From Zygnema cylindricum (Eukaryota; Streptophyta; Zygnematophyceae; Zygnematales; Zygnemataceae), in contig JBBHKE010000237.1 in the NCBI GenBank assembly GCA_037447655.1, positions 29,047 to 93,046 of the forward strand: DNA of 64,000 bases, read 5' to 3'. Under the pieces are notes generated by a model. The model had not been told where the DNA came from. It saw only the letters and a list, made by a program, of their open reading frames with translations, and did no database searches. Positions 3,114-50,574 of the stretch are shown piece by piece. A program made the translations under genes and the position numbers. Position 1 is the first letter of the stretch. Every line of letters begins with the position of its first letter.

Positions 3114-3126
<13 letters not shown>

Positions 3127-21783: not shown

Positions 21784-21838
21784 TGTTGCTTTTGAAAGCT
21801 TTAGTCCTCTCTATGCCTCGAGTGTGAGGGAGATAGTA

Positions 21839-23137
21839 TGAAATTCTATGGGCTCCATTACCACACAGAATTCGCAGATCAAAAGAAGCTAATCTAGATA
21901 GCGCCGACTCAAGTTTATATAAACCCCAATGATTGACCCCTTTACAATCAGAACCCCATGACAACTTCACCCCTGTGAAATAAGACTTTCTATGTGCTCA
22001 GTTCCACCACCGAATGCAAAGTTAGAATATGAGATTTGGACACATTCACCCACTTTGACTTTCCCTTAAAAATGCAGCCACCCTGGCAGGCAATAACTCA
22101 AACCGACTACACCCCTTTGTAGCGTGGACTCCCCTGAGTCCGCAGCAAAAATAATCACAGAATTTGGTCAATTGATTTGATGGATATGGCTGGCCAAAGT
22201 TTGCCATTTATATAAGTTGCTCTCTGGGAGAGGCAGCTACCTACCAAAAATATTCTAAGTCCTAAACCCCTTTCTAAACCCTCTAGTACTAAGGTACGGA
22301 CCAATCGCATTACTGTATAGTACATAAAGGTACAGATTCCAGTGTACCTTTTGTACGGTCATCGTACGACATGGCTAAAAAGTCAACAGATGTCTTATCC
22401 GGATTCACTCTTATAATCTCCGGAATTCTTGCCTCCAAATCTTATCTCTCCACGTTGCGCCAGGTCACGCTGCGTCAGAAAAATGGTACCGTACAAGAAA
22501 GTACAAGTGCTGGAGTACTTTCTGTACGTACATTGTAAAATGTCGCCATAGTGCGACATTTGTCACTTCCCGATTTGTTTTCTTCCGTTCCGGAAATTTC
22601 GTAATCCTGTTTGTTGTTGCCACGTGTCATCCGGAGTGGCGGAGTCCGAAAACCGCCAAATTGTCCTTTCCGCGAGACCGACGCTAACCATGGCCGTGCG
22701 ATTGATATGGGTATTAAATACGAATCGTCGAAACAAATGTCCGTACTATTTGTTTCGTCCGGTACTAATAGTACAACTGTTTCTTTGTCCTATAGACCGT
22801 AATCTAGTTAAATGGGAAAACCTACGTGTATGTGTTTAAATACATATCAAACCCTGTACACCTTAGCACAAGTCCTAGACTAAACGGACAAAGCTAACGT
22901 CTACTATGACGGATGGCAGGTACTAGGATCAATCTTGGGTCCGTCATTCCTTTGGGTTAATCTACTCAGATTCTACTACTTTTCTCTCTAGATAGCTTAG
23001 GCAGCCATGGCTCTAGCTCCCTCTTCAGCCTCCAATGACTACAACAAGTTTGGGGGCTTGGAGAAGAAGTTAGAGACAGACTGCCTCTGCTATTTTCCTA
23101 TCCTAAAATAGACCTAGAAAATACTCAAATATCAACA
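21839..23137 (-). repeat. 3' LTR of element A'
   Basis: 1299 bp. In reverse it runs TGTTGATATTTGAG..AGAATTTCA, ending at 21839. PPT complement CTCCCCTTATTTT follows at 23138-23150. It carries seven GTAC motifs (about 22285-22370), CCACGTGTCA near 22620 and the tRNA-like block 22865-22950. Confidence 0.92.
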
Positions 23138-23155
23138 CTCCCCTTATTTTCTAGT

Positions 23156-23629
23156 CTATTTTCTTTTCGGCTCCCACACAGCCAATAAAAACAAACAAGC
23201 AATATCACCCTCTCCACCCTTTTTCTTTTTCCTTTTCCTTTTCTTTTCATAAAACCTTAAGAAAATATTCTCGTATTTAAAATAGAGCATTTGATAAACC
23301 GGAATAATAATTACACCACACATTTTATTTAGCATCCCACTTTTTAGAAATCCAAGCCAAGATTTTATCCACCTCATCTCTTTTCCATCCACACTAAATC
23401 CAATTTCCTTCTTGCAATTCAAACAGCCAGCCCCATCTCCAATCTGCAATACACACCCAGATGCTAACCCTTTTACAAGCGCACCTTTATAAATGCCATC
23501 ACTCCCTTTAGTGATGTCAAACCCATTACCCCCAAAAATTAAACTTTCCTCACTCTCACTTTCTAAATTTATTCCCAATAAATATTTCTCCTCCTCTAAA
23601 CCTTTCATTAGATATACCTCTTCTCCCAT
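23156..23629 (-). CDS. Degenerate copia RNase H remnant ORF of element A'
   Basis: A 157-residue frame with GGNGFDITKGSDGIYKGALVKG aligned (in parts) to the copia RNase H reading DITTWSDASYGDAP. Later KEIGFSVDGKEMRW replaces the usual STMEAEYMA, and MCGVIIIPVYQM replaces the CDNQAAI motif, so catalytic acidic residues are lost. The C-terminus is lysine-rich (KKRKRKKKKGG) just before the PPT. A sister copy with the same changes is at 27884-28234. It may be an untranslated remnant that happens to stay open. Confidence 0.6.
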   Translation of the reverse strand: MGEEVYLMKGLEEEKYLLGINLESESEESLIFGGNGFDITKGSDGIYKGALVKGLASGCVLQIGDGAGCLNCKKEIGFSVDGKEMRWIKSWLGFLKSGMLNKMCGVIIIPVYQMLYFKYENIFLRFYEKKRKRKKKKGGEGDIACLFLLAVWEPKRK

Positions 23630-23948
23630 ATCCTTTTAAACCCCTTCTAGTTTCACTTCTCCTTTTTCCTCGGAATCCGTTGAAGTCTCCCTTTCCGACC
23701 TGTTTTCTAATTCCAAAATACCTATATAATTATCCTCATTAATTTTTTTTTTCCTGTTTTAACTTATGGATCCTAGAACTGACTTTCTCATTTATAAGTC
23801 ATACACTCTACACTCCTCGGCATCCTCAAGTACCTCCTCTCTCTTTACTTTTGTTATACCTCCAAAAGCACACTGTTGCCTTCATGGAATTTCTGTGTAC
23901 TTTTCTCTCTTCTCCATTCTACCGATATGAAGAAGCTCTAAGATTTCT

Positions 23949-25013
23949 TCATCCTCTTTCTTCTCTTCCCCCTCTTTCCTCCTCATTCACACCCCAACTT
24001 CTAAGTTTTTCCAAACGAGGACACTCCTCTATATGGTGACCCAGTTCTCTACAAAAGAAGGAAACCCCTTTTTCCAAAGCTCCCCTTTCTTTTCTTCTCC
24101 CTCTCTTTCCACCGAAGTTTCGATAAGGTTTACCTTTGTCTTTCTTCCTCTCATCACGCTTCCGCTCGTCGCCGCCATTCCTCACATCACGCTTCCGCCA
24201 ATAACCACCAGCTGTAAATGCAGTCACCCTGTCACTTCCCCTACGAAGCTCCAAGGTGCTTTCCCTCACAAGTATTATCCCCATGGTGATGCTCCAAGTC
24301 CACGAGGAGACATCCATTCCCTGCATACGGTAAATGATGTCTTCGTACTCATCTGGGAGTTTCATGATTAGTGTATTAATCTTTCTCTCCTCAGATTCTA
24401 CATATCCTGCACTAGAATGCTCAACATATAATGCAGCAATATCATTGCAAAACTCTATCATGCTACCGCCTTTATAAGCATAGGCCTCTATTTCTTGTTT
24501 TACTAACTGCTGCCTTTCTATAGTCTCACTCTTATAAATCTGAATTAGTGCTTCCCATATCTCCGAAGACTTGATTTGACTTAAAAGAGTGATAGCTATG
24601 GAATTAGACACACATCTAAGTATGAGATGTTTTGTTATATTGTTTTTATATTCCCAAATATTCCTATCATTTTCTTCAGTTTTTAGTTCAGTTATAACCC
24701 CCACAAGTGGAACCGTAGCCGAGAGCCTAGCTCCCCTCACCATAGGTGTCCCTTTATCCTTCTCCCTTATATCTCCTTCCACTATAATGATTTTCCATTC
24801 ACCTTCTGTTGCATCTAAACTCTGGTTGGTTTTCTAGGCAGCCCCAGATGATTCTTTATAGTGAGCTCCTCCAAAGCCCGGTGGCGGACACCTCACTTGT
24901 CCCGAAACAATTCCCCATAAGTGCTTCTCGAAAAGCAATCCCTCCATTGAAAACTCCCAATAAGTGAAGTTTGTCCATCAAACATAGGCACCCTAGATGG
25001 TGGGCCCATAACC
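23949..25013 (-). CDS. Copia gag of element A', largely intact
   Basis: An open frame of 277 residues (24782-23949) shows the family A capsid features: NNITKHLILRCVSNSI, EIWEALIQIYKSETIERQQL, MIEFCNDIAALYVE, TLIMKLPDEYEDIIYRMQGM. A basic linker (RKRDERKKDKGK) precedes a nucleocapsid knuckle FFCRELGHHIEEC whose first cysteine is lost. Upstream to the PBS the same frame gives FEKHLWGIVSGQVRCPP, but a TAG near 24835 and a frame change near the PBS separate it from the LTR start codon. Acidic repeats end it. Packaging and particle formation are the expected roles. Confidence 0.82.
24999..25013 (-). other. Primer-binding site of element A', perfect half-tRNA iMet complement
   Basis: In reverse this reads GGTTATGGGCCCACC, immediately after the LTR end AGAATTTCA. 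All 15 nt are complementary to the anticodon arm of eukaryotic initiator tRNA-Met (GGTGGGCCCATAACC). Confidence 0.88.
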
Positions 25014-26315
25014 TGAAATTCTATGGGCTCCATTCCCACACAGAATTCGCAGATCAAAAGAAGCTAATCTAGATAGTGCCTACTCCAAGTTTATATAAAC
25101 CCAAATGATTGACTTCTTGACAATCATAACCCCATTACAACTTCAACCCTGTGAAATAAGACTTTCTGTGTGTTCAGTTCCACCACAGAATGCAAAGTTA
25201 GAATATGAGATTTGGACACATTCACCCACTTTGACTTTCCCTTCGAAATGCACCCACCCTGGCAGGCAAACACTTTGACCGACTACAACCCTTTGTAGCG
25301 TGGACTCCCTTGAGTCCGCAGCAAAAATAATCACGGAATTTGGTCAATTGAGTTGATGGATATGGCTGGCCAAAGTTTGCCATTTATATAAGGTGCTCTC
25401 TGGGAGAGGCAGCTACCTACCAAAAATATTCTAAGTCCTAAACCCCTTTCTAAACCCTCTAGTACTGAGGTACGGACCAATTGCATTACTGTATAGTACA
25501 TAAAGGTACAGATGCCGGTGTACCTTTTTAAACGGTCATCGTACAACATGGCTAAAAAGTCAACACATGTCTTATCCGGATTCGCATTTATAATCTCTGA
25601 AATTCCTACCTCCAAATCTTATCTCTCCACGTGGCGCGAGGTCATGCCGCGTCAGAAAAATAGTATCGTAGAAAAAAGTACAAGTGTCGGAGTACTTAAT
25701 GTACGTATATTGTTCAATGTCGCCATAGTGCGACATTTGTCACTTCCGGATTTGTTTTCTTCCGTTCCGGAAATTTCGTAATCTCGTACGTTGTTGCCAC
25801 GTATCATCCGGAGTGGCGGAGTCCGAAAATGGCCAAATTGTCCTTTCCGCGAGATTGACGCTAACCACGGCCGTGCGATTGATATAGGTATTAAATACGA
25901 ACTGTCGAAACAAATGTCCGTACTATTTGTTTCGTCCGGTACTAATAGAACAACTGTTTTTATGTCCTATAGACCGTAATCTAGTTAAATCGGAAAACCT
26001 ACGTGTATGTGTTTAAATACATATCAAACCCTTTACACCTTAGCACAAGTCCTAGACTAAACAGACAAAGCTAACGGCTAGTATGACGGACGGCAAGTAC
26101 CAGAATAAAATCCTTGGTCCGTCATTCCTTTGGGTAAATCTACTCAAATTCTACTACTTGTCTCTCTAGAGAGCTACGGCAGCCATGGCTTTAGCTCCCT
26201 CTTCAGCCTCCAGTGACTACAACAAGTTTGGGGGCTTGGAGAAGAAGTTAGAGGCAGACTGCCTCTGCTATTTTCCCATCCTAAAATAGACCTAGAAAAT
26301 ACTCAAATATCAACA
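25014..26315 (-). repeat. 5' LTR of element A'
   Basis: 1302 bp, clearly the partner of 21839-23137 (several percent differences by eye). The gag ATG in reverse reads ATGGAGCCCATAGAATTTCA at its very end. The tRNA-like block is at 26045-26130. Confidence 0.92.
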
Positions 26316-27050
26316 AGTTTCACGACTTAGCATATGTTAGGTTGTAAGTTCGTTTGAGTACACGCTAGAATTGATGTTCCACTAGATCGGTAGGGAGTAC
26401 ACGTTTGTATACACTCCAAGACACAAGTCACTACAAGAAAGAAGACACTCCAGAATATCTAATTGTTGGTGCATATATACACTTGAGGACAAAATGGCAC
26501 ATGGAGATTTGTCTACGGTGCTGAATCTGATATGTACACTGCGGACGGAAACCGATGGTCCGTGTGAACCGTATACGCAACAAATGACGTGGCATACAGA
26601 ATCCTACTCTTTGTAAATATCTAGTTAAGTTGATTTTTGTCTTTGTGTGGTAAGCTGATTAGTATAGGAATCTCTTTCTATGACGTACCTTGTTCGGTTC
26701 GAGCAGTAGGTATTTATTGTTCGCTGGTATGCCTGCGTACGTTTAGCAGCATAGGCTTCAGTGTATACTAATAGGACTTAGACAACTTTGAAGGTATGAA
26801 CACTTTGTAGTCAAGAACTATACAACTTGTTTTTGGCATTTTTATGTGTGAATATCTCACAGATCTGTTGGCAAAATTACTTGTAATTTGTGTGTGTGTT
26901 CATCCTCATGTTATCTACATTGTGGTAAATTTGCAGGGCTATTGTGAATCTGGTTTGGGTTTTATCAACTGTTGAAGTTGCTATTTTTTAGACCGGTTTT
27001 TGTGAAAGTTTCTTGCTTGGTTTGGTTCCGAGATGACTACATCCGCATCC

Positions 27051-27873
27051 TGTTGATATTGGAGTATTTTCTAGGTCTGTATTAGGATAGAAAAAGAGCT
27101 GAGGCGGTCTGCCTCTAACTCCCCTATCCAAGCCACCACACTTGTTGTAGTCACTGAAGGCTGGATAGGGAGCTAGAGCCATGGCTGCCTAGGCTCTCTA
27201 GAGAAGACAGGGGGTGAATTAGGTAGACTTACCAAAAGCTAGTTGACGGACCCAGGAATTGATCCTGGTATCTGCCGTCTGTCAATTCGCATTAGCCGTT
27301 AGCTTTAGCTGTTAAGTCTAGGACAGATATTACGATATGTAGGGTTTGATAAATATATAAATCGTCATATGTAGATTAATCCGTTTAACAGCTAATAGAT
27401 ACTTAGTATATAGATACAGTTTGATTTAGTACGAAGTACGGTATGTGGACAGAACGGATACCAAGCATTTGTTTCGATAGCGAAACAAATACCGCGCATT
27501 TGTTTCGATAGCGAAACAAATACCGCGCGTCGAATTTCAGCGGCTATGATTATAGCCGGTTTTGATCGGACGGCCACGATAGGCGCCGCGATCACGCAAA
27601 AGGCATTTTTGGCGTTTTATGGTATTTGCCACGTCAGATGACACGTGGCGTGATAACATTCGACTATGGGAATTCCGGAGATTATAGGAACTAATCCTGA
27701 TTTGACACGTGTCGATATTTGGCCATGTCGTACAATGGCCGTACATAAAGTACACCGGCACCTGTACTTTTCTGTACGACACAGTAATTTGATTGGTGCC
27801 GTACTTCAGTAGATAGAGTTTTAGAGAGGGAATAGGACTTAGAAAATTTTGGGTAGGCAGCTGCCTCTCCCAG
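27051..27873 (+). repeat. Truncated 5' LTR of element A''
   Basis: TGTTGATATTGGAG to CTGCCTCTCCCAG. It carries the tRNA-like hairpin (27240-27330) and a duplicated TTTGTTTCGATAGCGAAACAAA hairpin motif, listed here only as its arms TTTGTTTCG and CGAAACAAA (27468-27525). It stops before the TATA box. Confidence 0.92.
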
Positions 27874-27883
27874 TTGGGAATAT

Positions 27884-28250
27884 TTGGGGGTGGATAGATT
27901 TGACATCACTACTTGGTGTGACGTCACTTGTGAAGATGTGCCTGTAAAAGGGTTAGCATCTGGGTATATGTTGCAGATTGGAAATGAGGCTGGCTCTTTG
28001 GATCGCAAGAGAGAAATCGGTTTGTGTGTGGATGAAACAGTGATGAAGTGGATAAAATATTTGCTCGGGTTTATGAAAAATGGGATGTTAACTAAAATGT
28101 GTGATGCAATTATCATTTCAGTTCATTTAATGCATTGTGTTAAATATTTAAGTTTTATGAAAGGAAAAGGAAAAAGGAAAAAGAAAAGAAAAAAAAAGGG
28201 AGGGGGTGTTTGTTTACATGTTTGTGGAAGATGAAAGAAAATAGACTAGA
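27884..28250 (+). CDS. Degenerate copia RNase H remnant ORF of element A''
   Basis: An open frame to 28234 reads RFDITTWCDVTCEDVPVKG, LASGYMLQIGNEAGSLDRKREIG, LCVDETVMKWIKYLLGF, MCDAIIISVH and ends in a lysine-rich tail. Compared with active copia RNase H it has lost the TMEAEYMA and CDNQ signatures in the same way as 23156-23629. The shared changes indicate a common defective ancestor that was still mobilised. Translation is uncertain, since the deletion removed gag and its start. Confidence 0.6.
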
Positions 28251-28262
28251 AAATAAGGGGAG
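28250..28262 (+). other. Polypurine tract of element A''
   Basis: AAAATAAGGGGAG lies directly before the 3' LTR start TGTTGATATTTGAG. Confidence 0.88.
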
Positions 28263-29472
28263 TGTTGATATTTGAGTATTTTCTAGGTCTGTATTAGGAT
28301 AGAAAAAGAGTTGAGGCGGTCTGCCTCTAACTCCCCTATCCAAGCCCCCACACTTGTTATAGTCACTGAAAGCAGGATAGGGAGCTAGAGCCATGGCTGC
28401 CTAGGCTCTCTAGAGAAGACAGGGGGTGAATTAGGTAGACTTACCAAAAGCTAGTTGACGGACCCAGGAATTGATCCTGGTATCTGCCGTCTGTCAATTC
28501 GCATTAGCTGTTAGCTTTAGCCGTTAAGTCTACGACAGATATTACGATATGTAGGGTTTGATAAATATATAAATCGTCATATGTAGATTAATCCGTTTAA
28601 CGGCTAATAGATACTTAGTACATAGATACAGTTTGATTTAGTGCGAAGTACGGTATGTGGACAGAACGGATACCGCGCATTTGTTTCGATAGCGAAACAA
28701 ATACCGCGCATTTGTTTCGATAGCGAAACAAATACCGCGCGTCGAATTTCAGCGGCTATGATTATAGCCGGTTTTGATCGGACGGCCACGATAGGCGCCG
28801 CGATCACGCAAAAGGCATTTTTGGCGTTTTATGGTATTTGCCACGTCAGATGACACGTGGCGTGATAACATTCGACTATGGGAATTCCGGAGATTATAGG
28901 AACTAATCCTGATTTGACACGTGTCGATATTTGGCCATGTCGTACAATGGCCGTACATAAAGTACACCGGCACCTGTACTTTTCTGTACGACACAGTAAT
29001 TTGATTGGTGCCGTACTTCAGTAGATAGAGTTTTAGAGAGGGAATAGGACTTAGAAAATTTTGGGTAGGCAGCTGCCTCTCCCAGAGAGCACTCTGTATA
29101 AATGGCAAACTTTGGCCAGCCATAACTATCAATTTACTTGACCATTTTCAGTGATTCTTTTTGCTGCGGACTCAGGGGAGTCTAGGCTACACAGGGACTT
29201 AGTCGGTCAGAGTTTTTGTCTGCCAGGGTGGCTGCATTTATAAGGGAAAGTCAAAGTGGGTGAATGTGTCCAAATCTCATATTTTAACCTTGCATTCTGT
29301 GGTGGAACTGAGCACACAGAAAGTGTTATTTCACAGGGGTGAATCTATATTGGGATTGTGACTGTCAAGGGGCTAGTCATTTGGGTTTATATTAACTTGG
29401 AGTCGGCACTATCTAGATTAGCTTCTTTTGGATCTGCATACTCTGAGGACCAATGGAGGTCTTAGAGTTTCA
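28263..29472 (+). repeat. 3' LTR of element A'', complete family A LTR
   Basis: 1210 bp and the best-preserved A LTR in the window. In order: TATTTTCTAGGTCTG signature; antisense tRNA-like block and hairpin (28447-28540); two hairpins with arms TTTGTTTCG/CGAAACAAA (28680-28735); ACACGTGGC (28852-28860) and GACACGTGTC (28916-28925); six GTAC motifs (28938-29014); TATAAAT (29097-29103); hairpin GGACTCAGGGGAGTCT (29168-29183); gag ATG (ATGGAGGTC) near 29453; end GAGTTTCA. Confidence 0.93.
28916..29103 (+). promoter_or_regulatory. Predicted U3 promoter of the family A LTR
   Basis: ACGT-core sites (GACACGTGTC, G-box/ABRE-like), then six GTAC motifs within about 80 bp, then the TATA box TATAAAT at 29097. 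The same order recurs in all family A LTRs. GTAC is the core bound by plant SBP-box/SPL-type factors. The regulatory assignment is inferred from motifs only. Confidence 0.55.
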
Positions 29473-29477
29473 CATCC

Positions 29478-30445
29478 TTATCCTCTTTGGTTCCGGCTGT
29501 TGTCTCAGAACAACAGGTGACGAGCCCGCCTTCACAAATTTCGGTTTTTGATGGGAGAGAAAATCTGTATTGGGCTGACTTTGTCAAGTCTTAATTTGTA
29601 CAAGTGAAGCTTTTTGATGTTGTTAATGGATCTATGGTAGAAACAGATGTAAACTATGATCAAAAGAATGAGCACGCTCTTCATCTAATAAAATTAATGA
29701 TATCTAAGGAGCTGCATATGACATACATTCAGGCTTCTAAAGCATCAAAGATTTGGGATGCTTTGAAAAAGACATATTCTAACCGTAATGCATAACATGA
29801 GATTATAACTGCTGGGCAGATCTTGGAATATAAGTATACAGGCGGAAGCATGGCAGAATATTGCAATAAATTCAGACTTCTAGTTGCAAAAGTACATGTT
29901 CTAGTGGTTCATTTTTTGAGTATCACCAAGCAATGGTTTTAGTAAGGGGGCTTCCTACTGAGTATAAAGGTGCCTAAGATAAACTGAAAAAATTGGATAA
30001 GACACAGTGGAATCTAGCTACACCTATAGAGTATGCGTTAGAAGAAGAAGCAAATCAGTTGGCATTTAATTCAGGAATGCCAGCAGTAGCTTACAATGCT
30101 CAGTTTGAGAGAGATAATAGATTTCAAGGAAATCAGTCTTTTCAACAATATGAACGGTGTTTCTATTGCTATAATAATGTTCATTTGTACAAGTTTTATC
30201 CTTTGTATATAAAAGCGTGTGAAACTGGTACTTATCGCAAAGGATGGAAGGTGAGAGGAGCTCCATTTACACTAAAACCTTTGAGCAAAACTGCGGCTTT
30301 TTCAGCGGAGGAAGAGGAACCGGCGAAAGAGATGGAGAAGGAGAAATCAGAGGTTGTTAGTTTTCCTAAAACTGACGACACCGATTTCTTTGCTATTGCA
30401 AAGATGATGGAGGGAGAGAAAGATCTCGGGTGGATTATGGACTAG
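29478..30445 (+). pseudogene. Family B copia gag of element B2, broken
   Basis: The frame leaving the LTR reads VPAVVSEQQVTSPPSQISVFDG, ENLYWADFVKS, then a stop. It continues KLFDVVNGSMVETDVNYDQK, HMTYIQASKASKIWDALKK and, in another frame, DKTQWNLATPIEYALEEEANQLA. The nucleocapsid knuckle is damaged: CFYCYNNVHLYKFYP lacks the last cysteine. The end FFAIAKMMEGEKDLGWIMD runs into the protease. Stops at about 29594, 29793 and 29976 and a frameshift inactivate it. Confidence 0.88.
29516..29530 (+). other. Primer-binding site of element B2
   Basis: GGTGACGAGCCCGCC directly follows the LTR end GAACAACA. It is a diverged form of GGTTATGGGCCCACC and is read in the gag frame as VTSPP. Confidence 0.65.
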
Positions 30446-31560
30446 GAGAGTTCCTCCCATATGTGTTGGAACAAATCCTATTTCAAGGATATGACACCTA
30501 TCCCTACTCGTCAAATCTTTTATCCTTGTGGTGCCACTGCGGAAGCTAATGCTAAGGGTAGCATAGATTTGAATTGTGAGATAGATGGCAAAGCTGTAAA
30601 AAGATCTTTGCATGATGTTTTATATGGTGCGTAAATTTAAGATAAAATTGTTTTCTACCTCAGTTGCAGAGAGTAAAGGTTTTGATGTTCTTCAGAGCAA
30701 AGGCAAAAAGAGAGTAAGCAAGGATGGGAGAGTAGCCTTAGTGAGAACTAGAGGCCCAAACATATTGTATCGGATGGACTTGGTTAATAAAGTTGATTTT
30801 ATGTATTCTAGTGTTCTTTTTGAAAATGTTTTGTGGCATAAAAGGCTTGGGCATGTTCTTAATGAGAGGCTTAAAAAGATGGTGAAGACTAATATGATAG
30901 AAGGTGTCAAGCTTGGTGAAAAAGAATCCTATATTTGTGATGGTTGTGCTTTAGGAAAGCTTCATAAGCTTTCCCTACCACATACTTTAGATTATCGAGC
31001 AAAGGATCTTCTCGCCCTTATCCACTCGGATGTATGGGGACCGGCCAAAGTTCCTTCCCTGAGTGGAAGGAAATACCTTGTTACCTTCACCGATGACTAC
31101 TCACGTTTCAGCCGAGTGTACTTTATGAAAGAGAAGAGCAAGGTCTTCACACATTTTAAGCATTTCCAAATCTGGGCAGAGAAACTTCACGAAATATCGA
31201 TCATTGCTTTGCGATCTGACAAGGGTCAAGAGTATGTATCAAATGAATTTGCTGAATACATGAAAAAAAATGGAATTTCTCATGATTTTACTGTTTTTTA
31301 AACTCCGGAAAAGAATGGCGTGGCTGAAAGACTCAATAGGTACTTGATTGAATGTGATATATCTATGATGATAGATAAAGGTGTAGATCCGAAATTTTAG
31401 GGGGAAGCTTTTTTAGTCTACTTCTTACATTAGAAAAAAAATAGAAACCAGATCTGTGAAGGACAAAACACTTTATGAAATGTGGACAGGAAGAAAGCCA
31501 AATGTTAGTCACTTTAGAGTATTTGGAAGTAAGTGTTTTATGTTAGATAACCTTCCAAAT
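30430..31560 (+). pseudogene. Copia protease and integrase of element B2
   Basis: The protease active-site region is GWIMD-stop-ESSSHMC (30430-30462). After one frame change, 30612-31301 is open for 229 residues. It includes the integrase zinc-binding domain (WHKRLGHVLNERLKK..CDGCALGKLHKL) and the catalytic core (HSDVWGPAKVPS, TFTDDYSRFSRVYFMK, RSDKGQEYVSNEF). The first two catalytic aspartates are visible. The third acidic residue region TPEKNGVAERLN follows a TAA at about 31299. Further stops occur to 31560. Confidence 0.88.
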
Positions 31561-32462
31561 TGGAAATTAAGTCTAAATCTTTACCTAGGATATTTTTGAG
31601 CTATGATGATGAGTGCGTACGATATAGAGTGTATAATCCTCAGAAAAATACAATTCATATTGTTAGGAATGTTCAGACCAAAGAAGAAAGCCAATCTGTT
31701 GATGGTTTTAGCATGAATGAGGCGGAAAAGGCAGAATATAATCGCAGGAATATGTCATCCTTGAGTAGATTCTTTTCAAGCAAACAGCAGTTTCTTCCTC
31801 TACATCTGAACTACCACATCATTTGGGGCTGCCAGATCCACCTACTATTGTAACTACTACCGGACCACCTCCTCCTCCTCCTCCTCCTCCTCCTCCTCCA
31901 AGACTACGTCGATAACCAACAGTTCTCGCTTCGGATTTTCCGGGGGGAAGAAGAAAAAGCAGCCGGCTAGGAGGTGACCGAGTGGATTTGCTTATTTTGC
32001 AATCAGAGGGGAGCCTCTTACCATTCAAGAAGCTTTCTCCGTTCCATAAAAAGATCTGTGGATTGCTGCGGCGAATGACGAGATAAAGTCAATTATGGAG
32101 GCTCAAATTTTAGAGCTTGTTGAACTCCACCGGATCGGAAAGCGATTGGTTATAAATGGGTATTCAAGTTAAAACCGAATCCCGATAAAACCATTGAGAG
32201 ATATAAGGCCAAGCTTGTTGCTAAGGGGTATAGCCAAAAAGAGGGCATTGATTATAAAGAGACGTCCTCACATGTAGTTCGTTTCCTACTGTTAGGATTA
32301 TTTTATCTTTAGGAACACTAGAGGATATGGAATAACATCAAATGGATGTGAAAACTGCTTTCTTGCATGGGAATTTGGAGGAAGTTATATATATCAAGCA
32401 CCCAGAGGGATATGTAGAAAAAAGGAAATAAAATCTGGTTTGTAAACTGTTGAAGTCCCAAG
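31560..32462 (+). pseudogene. Copia RT N-terminal part of element B2, truncated
   Basis: After a proline-rich linker encoded by a CCT repeat, the RT begins [38 protein letters not shown], then QMDVKTAFLHGNLEEVIYIKHPEGY and LVCKLLKS at 32455. It is cut at 32463 by the family A LTR. The rest of a family B pol (YILGIQVERD onward) reappears at 44738, possibly from the same element. Several stops and frameshifts are present. Confidence 0.85.
31866..31899 (+). repeat. (CCT)n trinucleotide repeat
   Basis: About eleven CCT units encode a proline run in the pol frame, in the hydrophilic linker between integrase and RT. The poly-leucine and poly-glycine ORFs in other frames are artefacts. Confidence 0.93.
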
Positions 32463-33490
32463 TGTTCAAATTAATAGATTTCTAGGGTATTTTCTAGGTT
32501 TAAAATGTAAATAAAAAAAAGAAAGAAAAAGGACAGACAGCCTGCCTACACCTCCTCTCTCTAGCCCCCATACTTGTTGTAGTCACTGAAGGAGAGAGAG
32601 AGTGGTTGATCCATGGCTACCTTGGTTCAACAGGCAGATATTTTTAAGGCTACTAAAAATATACCTGACGGACCCGGGATTTGATCCCGGTACGTGCAGT
32701 TCGTCAAGCTGGCCGATATTGGTCAACTTTATCCTACTAGACTAGGACCAATGCTAAATCCTATAGTATGTGATAGATATATATATATATATTTAGGAAG
32801 GAGCAAATCCATTAAACTAAAACTGTGTTTGGCGTGCATGGATACAGTTTTATAAATGTACCAATTCAAAACGGATACCACTCATTTTGTTTCGACAACA
32901 AAACAAATATCGCGCAAGTATTTATTACGGCCAAGATTGCGTCTCGCTGCAAATCGAACAGCGCACATCATCGCCAAAATCCCGGAGAAGTCACTTTGGC
33001 GTTTAGTGACGTGGCATGACCTAGAGCCACGTGGAGAGATGACATTTGGTCATAGGAATTCCGAAGAATGTACGGACGAGTGAAAAAGAGACACGCGTCC
33101 GCTTAATAGTCCTATCGTACATAGGTCGTACAAAAGGTACATCGGCACTAGTACTTTTTGGTACGGTACAGTAATCTGATTGGTCCGTACTTTAGTAGAT
33201 AGATGTTATTAGAGGGAATCAGGACTTAGAAAATTTTGGTAGGCAGTCACCTCTCCTTTTGAGAGTTTGTACAAATTGGCATTTTTACTGCCTCATGACT
33301 TATCGCCTAGTTGGGCGTTTTAAGAAAATCTTTTTCCTACGGACTCAAGGGAGTCTAGGCTGCACAGGGGTGCATTCTGATTATCAGCTTCATTACCTGG
33401 CCAGCAGTGGATGTGGGTTAAAGTGGGCTAGTTAACAACTATCTAGAGGCTTCCTTTATTCTGTAGTCTATTGGAGGACACAGAATTGCA
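32463..33490 (+). repeat. 5' LTR of family A element A4
   Basis: It starts TGTTCAAATTAATAG, carries TATTTTCTAGG, and ends CACAGAATTGCA, 1028 bp. The hairpin in the tRNA-like block (32664-32706) has arms CCGGGA/TCCCGG instead of CCAGGA/TCCTGG. The gag start position is TTG (33471) where other copies have ATG. Confidence 0.92.
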
Positions 33491-34472
33491 GGTTATGGGC
33501 CCACCCTCTTGGGTACTCACTTTCAATGGATCTGGGTTCATCTATTGGGAAGCCATGATGATGGGAGCTTTGTGTGAAAAACGATACTGGGGTATCGTTA
33601 GTGGACAAGTGAAACGTCCACCTTGCAAACTCCGCAAGGATTTGGAGGAGTAAGGTTTTCCTGCTGCACCGACTGCTTCCGCGGAGGAGGCAGACGATGG
33701 GGACAGCAATGTGTCCGAAAATGGGAAAGGGAAGGAGACACCCCTCACCCCTTTTGCCATGGCACCAAGAGCGGCGGTCGTGAAGACAGAGGAGAACGAT
33801 GTTCAAATGTGGTAAGACAAAAACATGGCTGCCAAGAACTTCATTCTAAGGCATCTCATTCGAGCCTTGGCCACCTCTCACCTTAAAATTTACAAGGCCG
33901 AGGAGTTGTGGGAAAGTTTGGTGGAGATCTATAGAGCTGGTACTATTCAGGAGCTCCAGTTGGCTGAGCAAAAGCTAGTGAGTTACACGTACAAAAAAAG
34001 AAAGATGTTAGATTATTGCAATGATTTTTCTTGTTTGTATATAGAGATGGAAAGTGCTGGTTGGACAGGCACAATGAAAATGAAAGTAAACACTCTCATC
34101 ATGAAGTTACCAGACAAGTATGAGAACTTAGTGTACCGAGTACAAGAAATGACTGATAGTTCATGGAAGTGGAATAAAGTGGTCAGGATGATACTTGTGT
34201 AGGAAAATACCATGGAGATCAGGGGAGGTGGAAAGAGCGTTCAAGCTCTAGCCGCCGGGGGGGAATTGTGGAGACCGGAACCGAAAAAACCATACAAAGG
34301 AGAAAGAGTCCAACTTGGAGGACCGAGGCCCCCAAAGGGCCTATGTCATTTTTGCAAAAAGCCAGGGCACTTTATTGCAGATTGTGCCAAGCTGGCGGAG
34401 CTGAGGCTCAAAGAGAACCAAGGAGGGGGTTCTTCCGAAGGGAAAAAAAGGCAATTTTGGTCACAAAGGTGA
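33471..34472 (+). pseudogene. Copia gag of element A4, broken
   Basis: The N-terminus reads EDTELQVMGPPSWVLTFNG, GFIYWEAMMMGALCEKRYWG and stops at 33651. The middle resumes at 33825: MAAKNFILRHLIRALATSH, EELWESLVEIYRAGTIQELQ, TLIMKLPDKYENLVYRVQEM. A TAG at about 34200 precedes EIRGGGKSVQALAAGGELW and the zinc knuckle CHFCKKPGHFIADC (34346-34387). A frame change separates the first and second parts. The pol frame overlaps the 3' end, which is probably a mutation because copia Gag-Pol is normally one frame. Confidence 0.88.
33491..33505 (+). other. Primer-binding site of element A4
   Basis: GGTTATGGGCCCACC is a perfect complement to 15 nt of the anticodon arm of initiator tRNA-Met, directly abutting the LTR end. 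In the gag frame it encodes VMGPP. Confidence 0.88.
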
Positions 34473-35519
34473 CAGGAGACATCGAGGATGAGTCCTATGA
34501 GGAGGATGGGGAGCTTCTTCTTGACGAGAGTCTGGAGGAGAAGGAGATCCCTTGGAGACAAAAGTGTGCCCTTGGAGCAATTCGGGAAGCTCCACAAGAA
34601 GGATGGATCATCGACTCAAGTGCATCCAAGCATATGTGTCGTGAGAAGGACCTCTTCACTAAGCTAAGGAAAATCCCTACTGTAGAAATAGAGTATAGGG
34701 ATGGGAGAGTTGTTACTACAGATCTAGTGGGATCGGTTGACCTGGAAGTTTTAGTGGGGGGTAAGAATTCTATTCTCACTTTCTCCGATGTGCTTTATAT
34801 TCCTCAGCTAAGTAAAAAACTTGTTTCTACATCTGTGTTAGATAACAAAGAGTTTGATACTTTTACTAGAGAGGGAGTTTTTACAGCCAAGTATGGGGAT
34901 GAAGTTTACTTCACTGCAGATAAGGGTAGCCAAGGAATGTTTAGGCTTTACCTGAGTAATGAAAAGAAGAATGCTTACTATGTTGGTGTCCCAAAATTGA
35001 TGATTTGGCATAAGCAGTTGGGGCATGTGCATTTTGATAGGTTGAGGGAGATGAAGAAGCTAGGTGTGGTAGAAGGCATTCAGTTCAGAAATAATGAAAT
35101 GGTGGATGATTGTAGTGGTTATGCCCAAGGAAAAACTCACAGACTTCCTTTTCCTAAAGCCGCCATATATAGGGGTGAAAAAGTACTAGATTTGATCCAC
35201 ACAAATATTTAGGGACTAGCAGAGGTACCTTTAGTTGGAGGAAGAAGATATATGTTGACAATCACTGAAGATTGGTCTAGATACTCTAGAGTTTATTTTC
35301 TAAAAACAAATTCAGAAACACCAACTTACTTCAAAGAATAGAAAGCCTGGAGTGAGAAGTTCCATGCACCCCTATTAAGAGAATAAGGAGTGATAATGTG
35401 GGAGAGTATACTTCTAACCAATTTGAGGAATACTTAAGATATCAGGGAGTTCAACACCAGAAAATTGTACCACATAATCCAGAACAAAATAGTGTAGCAG
35501 AAAGGCTAAACCAAACACT
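34440..35519 (+). pseudogene. Copia protease and integrase of element A4, truncated
   Basis: Protease: GWIIDSSASKHMCREKDLF (34600-34656); the active-site glycine of DSGAS is serine here. Then IPTVEIEYRDGRVVTTDL, FSDVLYIPQLSKKLVSTSVL. Integrase: WHKQLGHVHFDRLREMKK..CSGYAQGKTHRLPF, in which one zinc cysteine is tyrosine, then LDLIHTNI-stop, LTITEDWSRYSRVYFLK, and EYTSNQFEEYLRYQGVQHQ after a frame change. The last recognisable residues are NSVAERLNQTL at 35519, where the Gag-protease-methyltransferase fragment begins. RT and RNase H are absent. Confidence 0.88.
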
Positions 35520-35527
35520 AAAGCCAT

Positions 35528-36022
35528 TTGACTAAGGCATATGGCCTCAAATTTACTTTCGAGCAGGCTGCAAAATATGACGTACGCTATGTAATGCAGA
35601 CTAGTTGGTGGGACGCTCACGAGCGACCTAAGTATTCTCGTAATGCAAACCCGAATCATAATCCTAATCCACGCAACCCATGGCCCAATCCGAGACCTCC
35701 AAGGGCTCCAGCGATGGGAACATTACCATCAAACCTTGGTGTTCGTATATGCTTCCGATGTGGTAACACTGGTCACGACGCACGCAACTGTGCGGATAAG
35801 ACTGCTATGTGTACTTATGAGGGATGGAGAGAAAGCCGAGATGCAGGCTACCGTTGCGGCCATGATGGAAGAGCAGTTTGCCGCGCTTATGGCGTAGGTC
35901 AAACCGCAATTACTGGGAATGGCTCGAACTGTGGTCCATATGCCCTTTTTTTGTTAGGTGATCTCTTCGGGAGTCCATTGTTCAAAAGCGGGCAACTCAG
36001 ATTTAAGGGACTCGCGATATAA
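35528..36022 (+). pseudogene. Gag C-terminal part with zinc knuckle
   Basis: An open frame of 164 residues starts inside the domain (YGLKFTFEQAAKYDVRYVMQ), then an asparagine/proline-rich linker (NPNHNPNPRNPWPNPRPP). The CCHC knuckle is CFRCGNTGHDARNC (35753-35794), spaced C-x2-C-x4-H-x4-C. It continues HDGRAVCRAYGVGQT and NGSNCGPYALFLLGD, which looks like a second, degraded Cys/His cluster. Near 35990 the reading moves to another frame (SDLRDSRYNRESKPTNRRIPLSF, in two runs). The role is nucleic-acid binding and particle assembly. The N-terminal capsid is missing. Confidence 0.78.
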
Positions 36023-36730
36023 TCGCGAGTCAAAACCCACTAACAGGCGTATCCCACTATCGTTTGCTAAAGAACCTCGCTCGCCTATTCCATAATTGGC
36101 CTTAAGCATCACCGCTGAAGCATTAACAATTATGGAAAAGAGCATACAAGACACTTATAAGGTCAAAGAATGTTTGTCCATCTTGTCCTCCATGCTTCTT
36201 GAGCCGGATAGCAACGAAAAAATTGTAGATCTAACACCTTCAGCAGTGGCGTTAGAAGCACTTCAAAACCATCATAATGCCCTCTCCCTTCAAGCTATTA
36301 CTCTTGAAGAGCGTTGTAGCCTCATTCCACTTATCAGTTTCTTAGATAACAAATTGGTCGTTTTTACAGTTAATGGGGTTGCTCCTGCGTTGCCTCTCAT
36401 GGACACGAGCCCAAAACCTATTATCATCGGGTCAGAATTTGCCATAAAAATAGGTCTTACAGTAGATAAGCTACAACCCACTACCACACGTCTGTTGACT
36501 TCCGCATGTACCACAAAGTTGTCCTCGCTATTATGATGAAACCTATCTGTTTTCAAGTTCAGAGTCAGTCAGCGACCGATTTCGCAGAAATATATGCTCA
36601 TGCCTTGGTCACCAAGTGTAGTGATTATGAATGCTTGGTCAGTCAAGACGTCATTTTCCGAGTTGGGGGGGTGGTTGAAATCCATGAACAAACATTTTGG
36701 TACAAACCGAACAACTTTCCAGAACGTTAA
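35990..36730 (+). pseudogene. Retroelement aspartic protease, broken
   Basis: The frame ending at 36536 contains LVVFTVNGVAPALPLMDTSP, KPIIIGSEFAIKIGL: a beta strand, the catalytic DT[G/S] triad position as DTS, and the following strand of a retropepsin. After a shift near 36520 the frame continues FAEIYAHALVTKCSDYECLV, SQDVIFRVGGVVEIHEQTFW, the usual end of a retroviral-type protease (LGQD..F..GG). A TAA at about 36731 is read through to reach the methyltransferase frame. It would cut the polyprotein. The assignment rests on pattern, not on alignment. Confidence 0.68.
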
Positions 36731-36929
36731 ATTTGCTTACCTCTTATCTCAGCCCGGCAGCCCATGCCTACTACGGCCCATTCGGCACTAATCTTGCCAG
36801 CCTATGCCGCAGTTGGCATAGGTTCAAACATCTTTGAATCTCTAATTGCGGATGAAATCTCACCAGATCCCCAGGGTTTCGCCAAAATTATTTTGTACAC
36901 CTCGATTTACCATTGACTCTTCGGATTTT

Positions 36930-37955
36930 GACGACTATACATATTTACTATTCCTATTCCTTTATCTAGTATTCTAGATCCACCGTCCATTATGATGGAT
37001 CCTTCCAGGTTCGTGCCCATTAAATGCAAACCGGTCAGTTTACAACCTCACTCGAATGGTCTCGTTATTTTAGACATTTTCGCATGAATCGGTACTTCAC
37101 TTCTCTCTTGCTGGAACGGGCTTTTTATTAAACACTATTATTCGGTAGATATTGATCCCTTAGCTCGGCGCGCTCAGCTGCATCACTGTCAAATCTTGCA
37201 TGAACAATATCCACACCTTTTACCCCAGTCCATTTTTTATGACATGCATTCGGCTCTACCACATGTTATCCGCCTAATAGGAAATCACCATTTGTAGGGA
37301 TTAATACCAATCGATCTTTTTTTTGCTGGATGGGAATGTCAAGGTATGTTTAGAGCCGCGAAAGGTTTAGGTCTCGCGGATTTACGTACTTAGTTGTTTT
37401 TCGAGGTGGTGCGTCTTATCCACTTCTTCCAAAAACTGGATCGCCCTTTTGGAAACGTTTTAGAAAACTTCGCAGCTTACAATGACCCTCGACCCACGAT
37501 CCTCGCAGATTACAAGCGGATTAAATTATTAATTGGACCACCACTGATCATTGATGTCGGACGCCACGGTTCGCTAGCCCATGGGGTTCGTTCCAAGTGG
37601 ACTAACCTGGTGGACATAGGCTGGCTCGAAGAAGCTAACCTCGTTGTTCGACAACCTAACCTGTCCATCCAAGATGCACATCTTCCATTTTATAAGGTCC
37701 AGACCTGTATCGAAATAGACTTTCCTCTTGCATTTTGTCTTAATATCCCTAGCCAGCCACTACATGCACTTCCTACACTAGTCGCATATCCACACTCACA
37801 CGCATATTCGCATAACGGACCAGGCATGCTTCTGAACACCAATACAGGCAGCTTAGAAGACCCTACTGCTGCAGAATGAGAACATCTTTTACACTTCATT
37901 TCAGGCACCACTGCTGCTTCGGGACTCACTGAGAGGCAGCGCTGCACCTTACTTG
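36930..37955 (+). pseudogene. DNMT3-like cytosine-5 DNA methyltransferase domain in a retroelement
   Basis: The enzyme class transfers a methyl group from S-adenosylmethionine to C5 of cytosine. Motifs in order: I, LVILDIFA-stop-IGT (37061-37095); II, YYSVDIDPLARRAQ (37133-37180); IV, IDLFFAGWECQGM (37310-37350) with a cysteine in the catalytic position but E in place of the usual P; GLGLADLRT-stop-LFFEVVRLIHFFQ, the DNMT3-type RLFFE segment; VI, VLENFAAY (37460-37483); VIII, GSLAHGVRSKWTNL (37567-37610); and X, GLTERQRCTLL (37925-37955), cut by the next LTR. Three stops (about 37085, 37295, 37391) fall inside the domain, and a fourth lies at 37877; there are no frameshifts over about 300 residues. 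Non-functional now. Confidence 0.8.
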
Positions 37956-40335
37956 TGTTGGTTTTTTGAAACCTTTAGTCCTCTCTATATCACATTGCTA
38001 TGCAACCATGCTGCGCTAGTCACACCGCAGCCATAGCCGCATGTATGAAAAAGATAGCTGTTATCATGCTGCGCTGGTCACATCGTAGTCATAACAGCTT
38101 GTGTACTAGGTACTTAGAGTATTGATCGTACGGAATTGGACTTCAAGTGACGCAAAGAAACATAGACGAAAGTGTTGAATGTGTTGGAGAAATGGACAGC
38201 GGATCTCGAAGCGATCCGATGATTAATATTCGAAATGATTTAAATTGTACATCCGCTGTACGAAACATAATGCGGCGGTCAACATGTGATGAATTGGACG
38301 CCACCAGAGCTACGGACGGCAGCGCCGTCAATTTGGTGAGGGACGCGAAATGGCTTCCATTACATGATATTTATTTTGGACGGTCTTGATTAGTTTGACG
38401 GAATTCGTAAAACGTGTAAATATTTAACAATGTTTTGTCCTGTGTATTAATTAATAGTGTAGATCTCAGATACACTCACATTAATAGAGGTAGTTGATTG
38501 ATTTTGTACGGTTGGTATGCCTTCGTACACTTAGTACTAAGTTGTAGTGTATATTTGTAGGTGTTGTTCTTTGGTCTAAAATAGACCGCAAAAGCCACCC
38601 AAACTATCTAACAAAAAAAGTTAAGCAAAGTTAGGCCAATGAACAATCATTTGAAATGCATCCTCCATTTAACATACATGCATACACAGATGCAATCATT
38701 CATCCGCACAAGGCAAAGCAATCATCCGTACACAAATGGAGCAAGCATGCATCCACAGATGCATGAATAACATTTAGGGTTACATGAAAATCACAAAAAA
38801 CCCTAGGACAAATGCATAAATAATGCATAACAAAGAAGTATATAAATAACAAATATAAATAATAATATAAGAATGCATCACACATAAACAAAAGTATAAT
38901 CAAACAATAAATGTATCATATAAATGCATGACCTAATAGACAACCCTAAATTACTTTATCTTTGGTCCCTAGTTTTCTTAACAAGCATTGATGATGATTT
39001 CCTAATGAAGCTCAAATCTATATATACATTTGTGAGCTGTCAACAAATCGCTACGTGTCAAATTAACCAACGTAACTTCCACTAAATAGTATTTAATCAT
39101 TATAACCTACTACAACAAATAGCCTAACCGTAAGTGCACACCTGTGAGTTGACCAATCATAAGCGTACACTTATCTCCAAGTACGACATTGCATACACAC
39201 AAATTAAATTACCGAAACCCTAAATGATCACCTAAATAGAAACTGTAATTATCAACACTAAAATATTAATTCACATAAGACAAAAAAATGTTAATTCAAA
39301 TATTTACACAGACGCGTCCGCAAAATCCGACCGCTTAGTGACAGCTTGCTTAGTCACCTGTAGACAAAACCACGTAGTGAACCGACATCGCATAAGTACG
39401 GTCCACGTGATAGTACGTCATCATAAAAATGCGATCAATTGAAAATGTTGGCGGACGTCGTCCGCCCTCCACGTCTAGCTCGAACTACTTGCCAAAATAA
39501 ACCGTACCATCTAATCATGTGCTTACCAAAACTGCGTACCTCTCCGTAAATTCCGCCGATCAGATTCAAAGTAAGTCCGTCCAAAATATATTATGCGTAC
39601 CACCGGCGTCCTTTTTCCATAGATGCCGCCTAACCCATTATGTTCTGTACGGCCGACGTACACTTTAAACATTTCGTACATTTCACATCTGATCGCTTCG
39701 CGATTCCCCGTCCATTTCCCAACACATTTTGCGCCACTAAATTAGTCCATTAATTTTACTCGTACATTTAATCCCCAATCCGCAAATCCGTTCGAGCCTC
39801 CACATTAATTCCGGTAATAAAGTTTGCACGAAAATACTCGCACGCATGTACGAAACTGAATCTTCCAAAAACAACAGTAGGAATTAGTCATTTCTAGACT
39901 CAGGAACACTTTTGGAGAGAAACTATTTTGCTCCTTTTTGGGAATTTCATTTGAGAATTGCTCTCATTTTCTATTGGCTGAATCATCTGAAAATTTGCAT
40001 GTGTGTTCCACCTTGAATTTAAAATATTGTGGCAAATTTGCAGACCTATTGTGTGTCTGATTTGCTTAGGGCTTCATTTTGAAGTTGGTCATATTTATCA
40101 AAGTTTTGCCTAGCTGTTTTTGTGCAACTTTGACTGAGTGTTGTGATAATTCGGTTAGGTATTGTTATACGAAAATTGGTGGGAATACGAAGTGGCCTAT
40201 GAAATATCTGGTTGAGTAGTTTCAGCTTGGTGTGGTTAGTTTGTAGAATTCTGAGTGGAATCAAAGAAGGCTGTTTGGGGTAGTCAGTGGTGCTTCCGAG
40301 GGTACATTCATGGCTGAAAATAGCTATGAACAACA
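37956..40335 (+). repeat. 5' LTR of element C
   Basis: It starts TGTTGGTTTTTTGAAACC, ends CTATGAACAACA, and contains a reverse solo LTR (38562-39876). Without that it is about 1.06 kb. It has direct GCTGCGCTGGTCACATCG-type repeats near 38010-38095. The gag ATG at 40310 lies 26 nt before the LTR end. Confidence 0.88.
38562..39876 (-). mobile_element. Solo LTR of family D, reverse, inside the LTR of C
   Basis: 1315 bp, flanked by the perfect duplication GTAGG (38557-38561 and 39877-39881). In reverse it starts TGTTGTTTTTGGAAGATTCAG, identical to the LTR start at 63531, and ends AAAGAACAACA. No coding content. Confidence 0.92.
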
Positions 40336-42260: not shown

Positions 42261-42577
42261 AGGTTTGGGGGAGTGTTGGTTTTTGGAAACCTTTAGTCCT
42301 CTCTGTATCACATTGCTATGCTGCCCTGTTGCGCTGGTTACATCGCAGCCATAGCAGCGTGTGTGATAAAGATATTGTGCTGCCATGCTGCCCTGGTCAC
42401 ATCGCAGTCAGAGCAACTTGCGTACTAGGTACTAATTTTATTGGCACGTACCCAATCGGACTTCAAGTGACGCGAAGACACATAGACGAAAGTAAGGCTT
42501 GCTTAAAGGGAAAAGGACGGCGGATCGCGAAGCAATCTGACGTTAGATAATCGACGCGGTTGGAACTGTATGTGTCG

Positions 42578-43960
42578 TGCATGAGAGGCAAGCAAGCGAA
42601 CATGCATCACAACCAGCAAAGTCATGCTCACAAATATATACAACAACGGAAATAAATATGAAAAGTCAAAAAATGTATACACCATGAGAAGGAATAAAAG
42701 TGACAATGACCCAAAGAGAGAAAGGGAAGAATACTCCCCTATAGTGAAGTGGACCCAATAATTATGCTCAACCAGGAGGTAGCCACTAGGCTCTTTGGTC
42801 TTTATCACATTCCCTACAAGAGTTATCTCGTTACGACAACAAAGCATGAAATATTCCAACCGGAACAAGGGAAAATCCAATTCCGATCAAAAATACACTC
42901 CTTCCAAGCCAACCGAAATAAAAACAAGACAGAAACACACAACCAAACCGTCAAGCAACCCGAGGAAGGCACAGCAAGGTACAGATGTGCTCCCCCACGA
43001 TCTCTAATTCCACACTTCCACCAAAAGACCAAGTTTGGATGGAAGCCTTCCGGACGTGGCCTTAGGCCGCGTGGATTAAAAACATGAGCAAAAATAAAAG
43101 GGGAAATATTCTTATCGTATCTAGCCTCTATAGCTAGCAAGCAAGGAGAAGAAAGACACGTGGGCAATCGGTGAGAGAGAGAGCAAGAGAAAAGCTCTGC
43201 TGCCAAGAGAAAATTCTTGTCCAAAAGCTAAATTCTCTAAGTCTGAGAATTAGGCTAAGTAAGAGCTACGCTAGGCCTAAGCAAAATTAGCCTACGTCTA
43301 GTCTACTTTACATGCATGAAACGCCTTAAGATGTTGGCCCATAGGCGGCCAACATCGTTTGCTGTACGCCAGACAAAATCCACCGTTCGAGGGTTAAAAC
43401 CCTCCCTAACTACATGTGCGCGCGAACCTACATGGGTTCGCGACTTAAATAATTAGATAGTGTATCGAAGCGTCCCCCGGGAATCCGATGCGCTTCCAAA
43501 CGAGACTCCGCGTACATACTTCGAAATCGCGTGCATACGCACGAATCGAAGCATACCGCACAATATAAAAGGTCTAGCACGAAATACTCAAAATCGCGTC
43601 ACGTCGCCCAAACGATGTTTCGCATCCAACTTTGAAAACCGTGTACCTACGCACGAAATAAAACATATCGCACGAAATTAGTACCTTTCAACAAAAAAAC
43701 TGAAAATATGAATCGGAATTAAATCGCACGTGCGAACGAAACTTATATATGCGTAAGGAAATCGCGCGTGCATGCATAAAATCGAGCGCGCGTGCCCAAA
43801 ACCGTGCGTGCGTGCGGAATACTGAGCGTGCATGCAAAAAACCGCGCGTGCGTGAGAAATACCGCGCGTGCGTGCATGATATCGTGCGCACGCGCCGAAT
43901 ATCGCGCGTGCCGACATGATATCGTGCGCGCGAGCAATCGACACTATGGGGCATGACATA
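42578..43960. mobile_element. Unclassified 1.4-kb insertion in the 3' LTR of C
   Basis: Bounded by TGTCG direct repeats (42573-42577 and 43961-43965). The ends TGCATGAGAGGC and GGCATGACATA are not a clear LTR pair. It contains GGGTTAAAACCCTCCC and other short palindromes, and a 20-bp tandem array (43761-43940). No recognised protein. It may be a solo LTR of an unknown family or a non-autonomous element. Confidence 0.6.
43761..43940. repeat. 20-bp tandem repeat, nine units
   Basis: Units follow the pattern ATCGCGCGTGCGTGCANAAT with substitutions but no length change. The reverse strand lacks stops in all frames, so three overlapping Arg/His/Ala-rich ORFs appear. They are not evidence of a gene. 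Confidence 0.93.
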
Positions 43961-50570: not shown

Positions 50571-50574
50571 TATA

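Follow-up and report, generated by a model that had tools for sequence, protein, structure and literature searches.

A decayed Gypsy-type retrotransposon copy with a DNMT3-like methyltransferase and its split-repeat relatives in the same genome

Sequences resembling gag, protease and a cytosine-5 DNA methyltransferase (DNMT) lie side by side at positions 35520-37955 of the window, by which we mean the whole stretch of 64,000 nucleotides analysed, and they raise the question of whether a single retroelement carried its own methyltransferase here and, if so, how such an element is built and inserted. Retrotransposons carrying their own silencing enzyme are known from two algal lineages. According to the main text of PMC5890265, KnitGypsy-Dnmt3 of Klebsormidium nitens has the Gypsy domain set, a Dnmt3-like DNMT without introns in the Pol frame and DIRS-like repeats in the order A-coding-B-A-B; its DNMT is under purifying selection and the Klebsormidium DNMTs retain their key residues. 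Other retro-DNMTs were expressed in laboratory yeast in that study. The same source describes SymbioDIRS-Dnmt3 of Symbiodinium, with a Dnmt3-type DNMT in Pol, A-coding-B-A-B repeats and a tyrosine recombinase, and there de Mendoza et al. 2018 suggested self-methylation of retrotranscribed DNA (PMC5890265). We found that window 35520-37955 is the gag-protease-DNMT portion of a Gypsy-type retrotransposon, in a decayed state.

Structure and decay of the window copy

The features of this copy are listed below with reference to C1344, an open-frame copy in the same host assembly (352,776,454 bases, 2689 contigs), and to L089, a relative outside the host genome; labels in C and L (C1344, L167 and so on) denote the regions and loci examined. 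Within that assembly the window spans C180:29047-93046.

19778..20719, + strand: 5' repeat A1, beginning TGTCATGCCG after the flank ...TCCAAT; 83.1% DNA identity to C1344 repeat A over 954 columns
20720..21688, + strand: leader from repeat A1 to gag; 83.4% identity to C1344 up to 20837 (blastn)
21689..35519, no strand given: interrupting sequence, ~13.8 kb of other transposons, largely Copia-type, outside the retro-DNMT element
35520..35818, + strand: gag portion with the zinc knuckle (35750-35791); 90.6% DNA identity to C1344, aligned to L089 gag
35819..36536, + strand: gag tail and N-terminal protease half (LMDTSPKPIIIG), frame 0; aligned to L089 residues 517-561
36537..37042, + strand: C-terminal protease half and spacer, frame 2; tblastn HSP with L089 ORF1 from 36581
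37043..37954, + strand: DNMT3-like cytosine-5 methyltransferase with 4 in-frame stops, frame 2, cut in motif X
37061-37084, + strand: DNMT motif I
37334-37342, + strand: DNMT motif IV ECQ, Cys codon 37337-37339
end at 37468, + strand: DNMT motif VI LEN
37956..38559, + strand: Copia LTR 5' end (TGTTGG...) inside motif X; direct repeats with 42273-42554 and 43969-44281

DNA identity between 35520-37955 and C1344 is 85-91%, and across 35819-37955 the blastn alignment is unbroken at 85.1%. Relative to C1344, 158 bp are missing at 35818/35819. The reading frame passes from frame 2 to frame 0 at ~35825 and returns to frame 2 at ~36500, and seven in-frame stops fall in 36482-37954, four of them within the DNMT; the initial annotation had the methyltransferase continuing in the same frame as the upstream parts, which these breaks contradict. 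The extent that it gave, 35520-37955, holds for the coding part, but the element also takes in 19778-21688. Beyond 20837 the leader matches C1344 at 76% over 600 columns and 78% over 51 (blastn, to ~21600), and tblastx matches reach 21688, corresponding to C1344 element positions up to 2051, while the gag N-terminus (element ~2052-3137) was not found anywhere in the window. All C1344-matching pieces lie on the + strand (window searched by blastn with the C1344 element), and their order, strand and lack of overlap suggest that 19778-21688 and 35520-37955 belong to one copy.

At its 3' side the visible retro-DNMT element ends at the Copia LTR at 37956, which truncates the DNMT in motif X; the second LTR copy of that Copia element begins at 42274, with a polypurine stretch ahead of it. 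Searches of the window and of the following 10 kb of the contig recovered neither RT nor any later part of this copy, and the RT-integrase matches at 47.8-50.0 kb are 24-40% identical and represent another Gypsy element. The window copy is dead and interrupted.

Two further observations concern its neighbours. Both LTRs of the DNMT-cutting Copia element hold an extra ~1.3-1.4 kb (38560-39876 and 42554-43969), probably nested insertions. A second, unrelated Gypsy element at 46104-51133 contains gag, a protease-like ORF, RT, integrase and a C-terminal ORF with a chromodomain recognised by eye (YLVRWKGY); the DNMT-bearing ORF1 of L089 has no significant match there.

The domains read initially from the letters alone were recovered. 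The Gag zinc knuckle is present (CFRCGNTGHDARNC, 35750-35791; Pfam zf-CCHC E 1.9e-3, 18.7 bits, cut-off 20.8), as is the retropepsin-like segment at 36396-36431 in frame 0, which aligns with the L089 protease; Pfam reported no protease on the protease-bearing piece of the window. The DNMT motifs lie in frame 2 at 37043-37954. A check against DNA_methylase (PF00145), which had been recommended, did return a match, but at E 1.3e-3 and 18.6 bits, under the 22-bit cut-off; dcm gave E 9.2e-4 (18.9 bits vs 100.65), and the best PDB match was DNMT3A (E 5.8e-3). These scores are marginal because the copy has decayed. Its three frame pieces align in order with L089 ORF1, at 202-232 for the zinc knuckle, 517-561 for the protease and 583-1047 for the protease end to motif X; 36581-37954 forms one tblastn HSP of 474 columns (31% identity, E 1e-46), and the zinc-knuckle and protease pieces score 62 and 71 against shuffle maxima of 44 and 54 (200 shuffles each).

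Open-frame relatives in the host genome

PF00145 gave at least 123 scored matches from 782 candidates in the host assembly, the decayed DNMT of the window not being among the 123. Twelve distinct places were examined, namely L164-L171 (L169 being region C1374) with C1344, C1407, C449 and C544; eleven are of retroelement type and match the L089 DNMT, and the twelfth is L170. The family also appears, as a 5' part, in one of ten arbitrary host stretches (eight contigs). On L158 (C3:1-10000), a stretch that also holds a 5' part of a retro-DNMT element, the minus strand has an open frame of 597 codons that resembles a host gene.

In C1344 a single frame of 2395 codons encodes gag, protease, DNMT, RT, RNase H, integrase and a PHD finger, so that the initial reading of a retroelement polyprotein with a DNMT3-like methyltransferase is realised there in one open frame. 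This is the Ty3/Gypsy domain order with a DDE-core integrase, of which the window retains only gag, protease and DNMT. Pfam recognised RVT_1, RT_RNaseH, Integrase_H2C2 and rve in pieces of C1344, with zf-CCHC and Asp_protease_2 both below cut-off, and reported no ADD or PWWP domain; a scan of the open frame found no tyrosine recombinase at E 0.01 and rve instead. The PHD finger lies C-terminal to the integrase in all five regions examined, above the Pfam cut-off in C1344 (E 3.4e-10), C449 (1.8e-11), C1407 (2.2e-10) and C544 (2.7e-5) and below it in C1374 (4.6e-4). The search for intact same-genome copies with RT and LTRs, proposed at the outset, succeeded for the open frame including RT, but the repeats of C1344 are arranged A-coding-B-A-B and not LTR-coding-LTR. 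The retro-DNMT family looks alive, and some better-preserved relatives in the same genome are apparently recent insertions.

Two alternatives would detach the methyltransferase from the retroelement. Gag/protease and DNMT might be separate insertions adjoining by chance, the case that the initial annotation had itself named as refuting it; the region does consist of nested transposon sequence with frame breaks, but C1344 and L089 have all parts in one open frame and in the same order, and the unbroken DNA identity to C1344 across 35819-37955 also speaks against it, so that this reading is refuted and keeps practically no probability. Equally negligible is a decayed host DNMT3 gene or retrocopy adjoining a retroelement: although the closest solved structures are DNMT3 enzymes, the C1344 DNMT sits in frame between protease and RT, which refutes the idea for the window stretch, and retroelement type prevails at the twelve PF00145 places examined, L170 being the chromomethylase exon discussed below. 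We hold to a single Gypsy-type element, and of the two options initially offered for it, a degraded relative of known elements or a separate capture, the former is better supported, as domain order and A-coding-B-A-B repeats match KnitGypsy-Dnmt3 as described in the main text of PMC5890265.

Motif IV, selection and affinities of the methyltransferase

The aligned DNMTs fall into two subfamilies, one with ECQ in motif IV (subfamily 1: C1344, C1407, C449, L167, L168 and the window) and one with PCQ (subfamily 2: C1374, C544, L165, L164 and L171); the alignment was made without L166, whose DNMT lies in two HSPs, and without L170 of the host. The ECQG proposed as motif IV of the window was correctly placed and is not decay, ECQ being present in all six aligned subfamily-1 rows. 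The motif IV Pro is present in 12 reference enzymes and invariant in 21 rows of another alignment, and the ECQ subfamily, in which the catalytic Cys, the Glu-Asn of motif VI and both motif I and motif VIII are retained, may be non-catalytic.

Ka/Ks of the DNMT ranged from 0.11 to 0.40 in the 19 of 78 pairs for which it was computable, the remaining pairs being saturated, identical or from the same locus. Values were 0.11 for C1344/L167, 0.15 for C1344/window, 0.17 for L167/window and 0.14 for C1374/C544, with the higher ones (0.25-0.40) in close subfamily-2 pairs and in C1344/C1407 (0.32, two differences); RT-integrase of C1374/C544 gave 0.10. The DNMT is under purifying selection, the ECQ subfamily included, and the low C1344/window value implies that most of their divergence predates the death of the window copy. 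CpG observed/expected was 0.66-0.99 in four copies, 0.84 in the window and 1.08 in six arbitrary stretches; this is no clear sign for a methylation reading, and we count it against our best explanation.

L089 was the one outstanding match (E 7e-31; the next of 64 loci, 1e-10) when prokaryote genome contigs were searched with a profile built from DNMT3A, five phage enzymes and the DNMT of the window. It lies on contig CADCWO010000201.1 of a metagenome-assembled genome labelled Synechococcales cyanobacterium (isolate AVDCRST_MAG81) and is probably a eukaryotic contaminant of that bin. Like the window element, it is Gypsy-type, with gag-protease-DNMT followed by RT-RNase H-integrase and a DNMT of the same clade: ORF1 matches aspartic protease (E 7.8e-4, below cut-off) and DNA_methylase (E 6.8e-12) and has CCHC motifs by eye, Pfam giving no zinc knuckle in it at E 0.1, and ORF2 matches RVT_1, RNase H and integrase. 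Unlike in C1344, which has no such stop, ORF1 and ORF2 share a frame parted by one TAG (3489-3491). The TAG is followed by CAATCA (3489-3497), a context that favours stop-codon read-through. L089 also hints that the sample contained an alga or moss with retro-DNMT elements.

In a 46-row tree that took 28 of the 136 extracted bacterial and viral ORFs, mostly high scorers, all eight retro-DNMT rows grouped as a single clade (100/100), in which L089 was placed next to subfamily 2 (96/84); barring transfer of the element from one host to the other, the two subfamilies would therefore predate the divergence of these hosts. A long branch of its own (2.58 changes per column) leads to the retro clade. 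DNMT3A is on that side of the tree too, itself long-branched and placed among enzymes of phages and bacteria, with DNMT1, DNMT2 and M.HhaI apart. The tree program flagged long branches (DNMT3A, DNMT1, DNMT2 and others) and an atypical residue composition of five retro rows, and we are unsure of the deep placement of the retro clade. DNMT3A is outscored by many phage and bacterial enzymes.

Among solved structures, the L089 DNMT matched DNMT3A best (1.7e-8), followed by HaeIII (1.1e-5), HhaI (1.5e-5) and DRM-type enzymes (0.006-0.027). A structure model of it (pLDDT 74.3, pTM 0.77), from an alignment whose 20 other rows were viral-contig and prokaryote enzymes, was compared with the PDB by Foldseek, and all 50 matches listed were DNMT3 entries (best E 1e-14). 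The retro-DNMT shares with DNMT3A/3B and with DNMT3-like phage and bacterial C5 methyltransferases the unrearranged order of motifs I to X and the motif VIII R..W.N; it differs from DNMT3A/3B in that C1344 has no ADD or PWWP by Pfam and carries a PHD finger elsewhere in the polyprotein. "DNMT3-like" is a fair label, denoting likeness and not necessarily descent from a host DNMT3 gene. A DRM identity, with motifs VI-X before I-V, was rejected on the order I, IV, VI, VIII, X in the window and its relatives. Phage or giant-virus origin was likewise set aside, single-protein queries finding no close relative in viral contigs; 80 loci retained in a separate search match the window piece at 24-33%.

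The short exon-like frame at L170:1501-1746 has its best PDB matches in 9mvy, 7ubu and 4fsx (E 8e-28 to 9e-28; next group 7e-12), of which we take 4fsx to be maize chromomethylase. By these similarities, L170 points to an exon of a host plant-type chromomethylase and to a green-lineage host. No Rubisco large chain turned up in the host assembly, as expected for one without plastid (the control query matched 5 of 14 genomes).

Split repeats and a proposed route of insertion

C1344 works like a Gypsy element and ends like a DIRS element. It lacks two full terminal LTRs and has the split direct repeats of the DIRS/PAT type, in the order flank, A1, coding, poly-G, B1, GC, A2, B2, flank. Repeat A (5014-5944 and 14481-15411) is 100% identical over 931 bp and repeat B (14237-14478 and 15412-15654) 99.6%; repeat A identity is 99.5% in C1915 and 99.8% in C829. 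The inner junction B1-GC-A2 forms the palindrome GACAGCTGTC in six copies from two subfamilies (C1344, C1407, C449, C1374, C1915 and C829), and the outer element ends read TG...CA, with the C1344 borders TTGG|TGTC...GACA|TTGG. Among the five copies with both outer borders read, three have a perfect 4-bp target-site duplication (TTGG in C1344, CCCT in C1915, AAGG in C829), expected by chance in ~1 in 256 per copy, and these three are the youngest-looking, with repeats >99% identical. C449 has TCAT/GCAT, matching at 3 of 4 bases, and the mosaic C1374 has CCGT/GAGG and no duplication. C783, C2577, C82, C1407 and C544 stand outside that count: A2 is missing behind B1 in C783 and C2577, no 5' end could be located for C1407, and in C544 the start of A is present but no 3' end was recognised. 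By eye, no classical tRNA primer site was recognised after A1.

We propose a route that would account for this layout. The RNA would run from A1 into A2, the plus strand would start at the poly-G stretch, and reverse transcription would yield B-GC-A as an LTR equivalent in a cDNA that closes to a circle. The DDE integrase would then cut the palindrome at CA^GC in each of its strands, so that the circle opens at the B/A boundary and GC is lost. Retroviral integrases take off two bases after CA. As judged from the sequence, such a cut on both strands would produce exactly the genomic ends seen (TG...CA), and the linear product with these processed ends would insert with a 4-bp duplication. More speculatively, double-stranded cDNA might be methylated by the DNMT, either ahead of insertion or on it, and the PHD finger might direct the element to particular chromatin, the element thus bringing its own mark. 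Taken as a whole, a Gypsy-type family with a DNMT3-like DNMT between protease and RT, a PHD finger behind the integrase and split repeats resolved by circle opening is, in our judgement, the probable explanation.

An origin of A-coding-B-A-B by recombination between ordinary LTR elements or by nested insertion, with linear integration as usual, could draw on the mosaic C1374 and on C783 and C2577, which lack A2 behind B1, but it is improbable: the B1-GC-A2 junction recurs in both subfamilies, the three copies with >99% identical repeats are bordered at their outer A and B ends by target-site duplications, and KnitGypsy-Dnmt3 is described with the same layout in the main text of PMC5890265. A somewhat better case, though still an unlikely one, can be made for a DNMT kept in a non-enzymatic role such as nucleic-acid binding or scaffolding, at least in the ECQ subfamily, where Glu replaces the otherwise conserved Pro in 6/6 rows; the retained catalytic Cys, Glu-Asn and motifs I and VIII, the C1344/L167 Ka/Ks of 0.11 and the PCQ of the aligned subfamily-2 rows argue against it. 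Our preferred account, the split-repeat Gypsy family with circle opening, can be extended to a reader-writer element (DNMT with PHD finger) whose circular cDNA is opened by a DDE integrase, with repeated methyltransferase uptake and a working ECQ enzyme, an extension that we offer tentatively.

Compared by description, the present family and KnitGypsy-Dnmt3 have in common a Dnmt3-type DNMT in the Gypsy Pol frame and DIRS-like repeats; the PHD finger, target-site duplications, palindromic junction and ECQ subfamily go beyond that description. The main text of PMC5890265 has no mention of a PHD finger, split repeats, a circular form or target site duplication, and literature searches brought no further retro-DNMT report that we recognised among the matches listed. 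SymbioDIRS-Dnmt3, as described there, has a tyrosine recombinase, whereas in the present family the integrase is of the DDE type (rve, Integrase_H2C2) and the duplication 4 bp long. Split repeats are common to the present Gypsy family (C1344, C1374) and to methyltransferase-bearing DIRS elements.

With the L170 chromomethylase, host and element methylation machinery can be compared within one genome. The host genome makes testable why an element writes DNA methylation and whether this writing is tied to a chromatin reader, in what way a Gypsy integrase handles split repeats and whether Glu is tolerated for Pro in motif IV. If the extended account is true, split-repeat elements (DIRS and the present family) acquired methyltransferases several times, the reason being that the enzyme acts on DNA at its circular stage, and one lineage evolved a working C5 methyltransferase with ECQ replacing PCQ; the link between methyltransferase and circular stage deserves a survey across retroelements.
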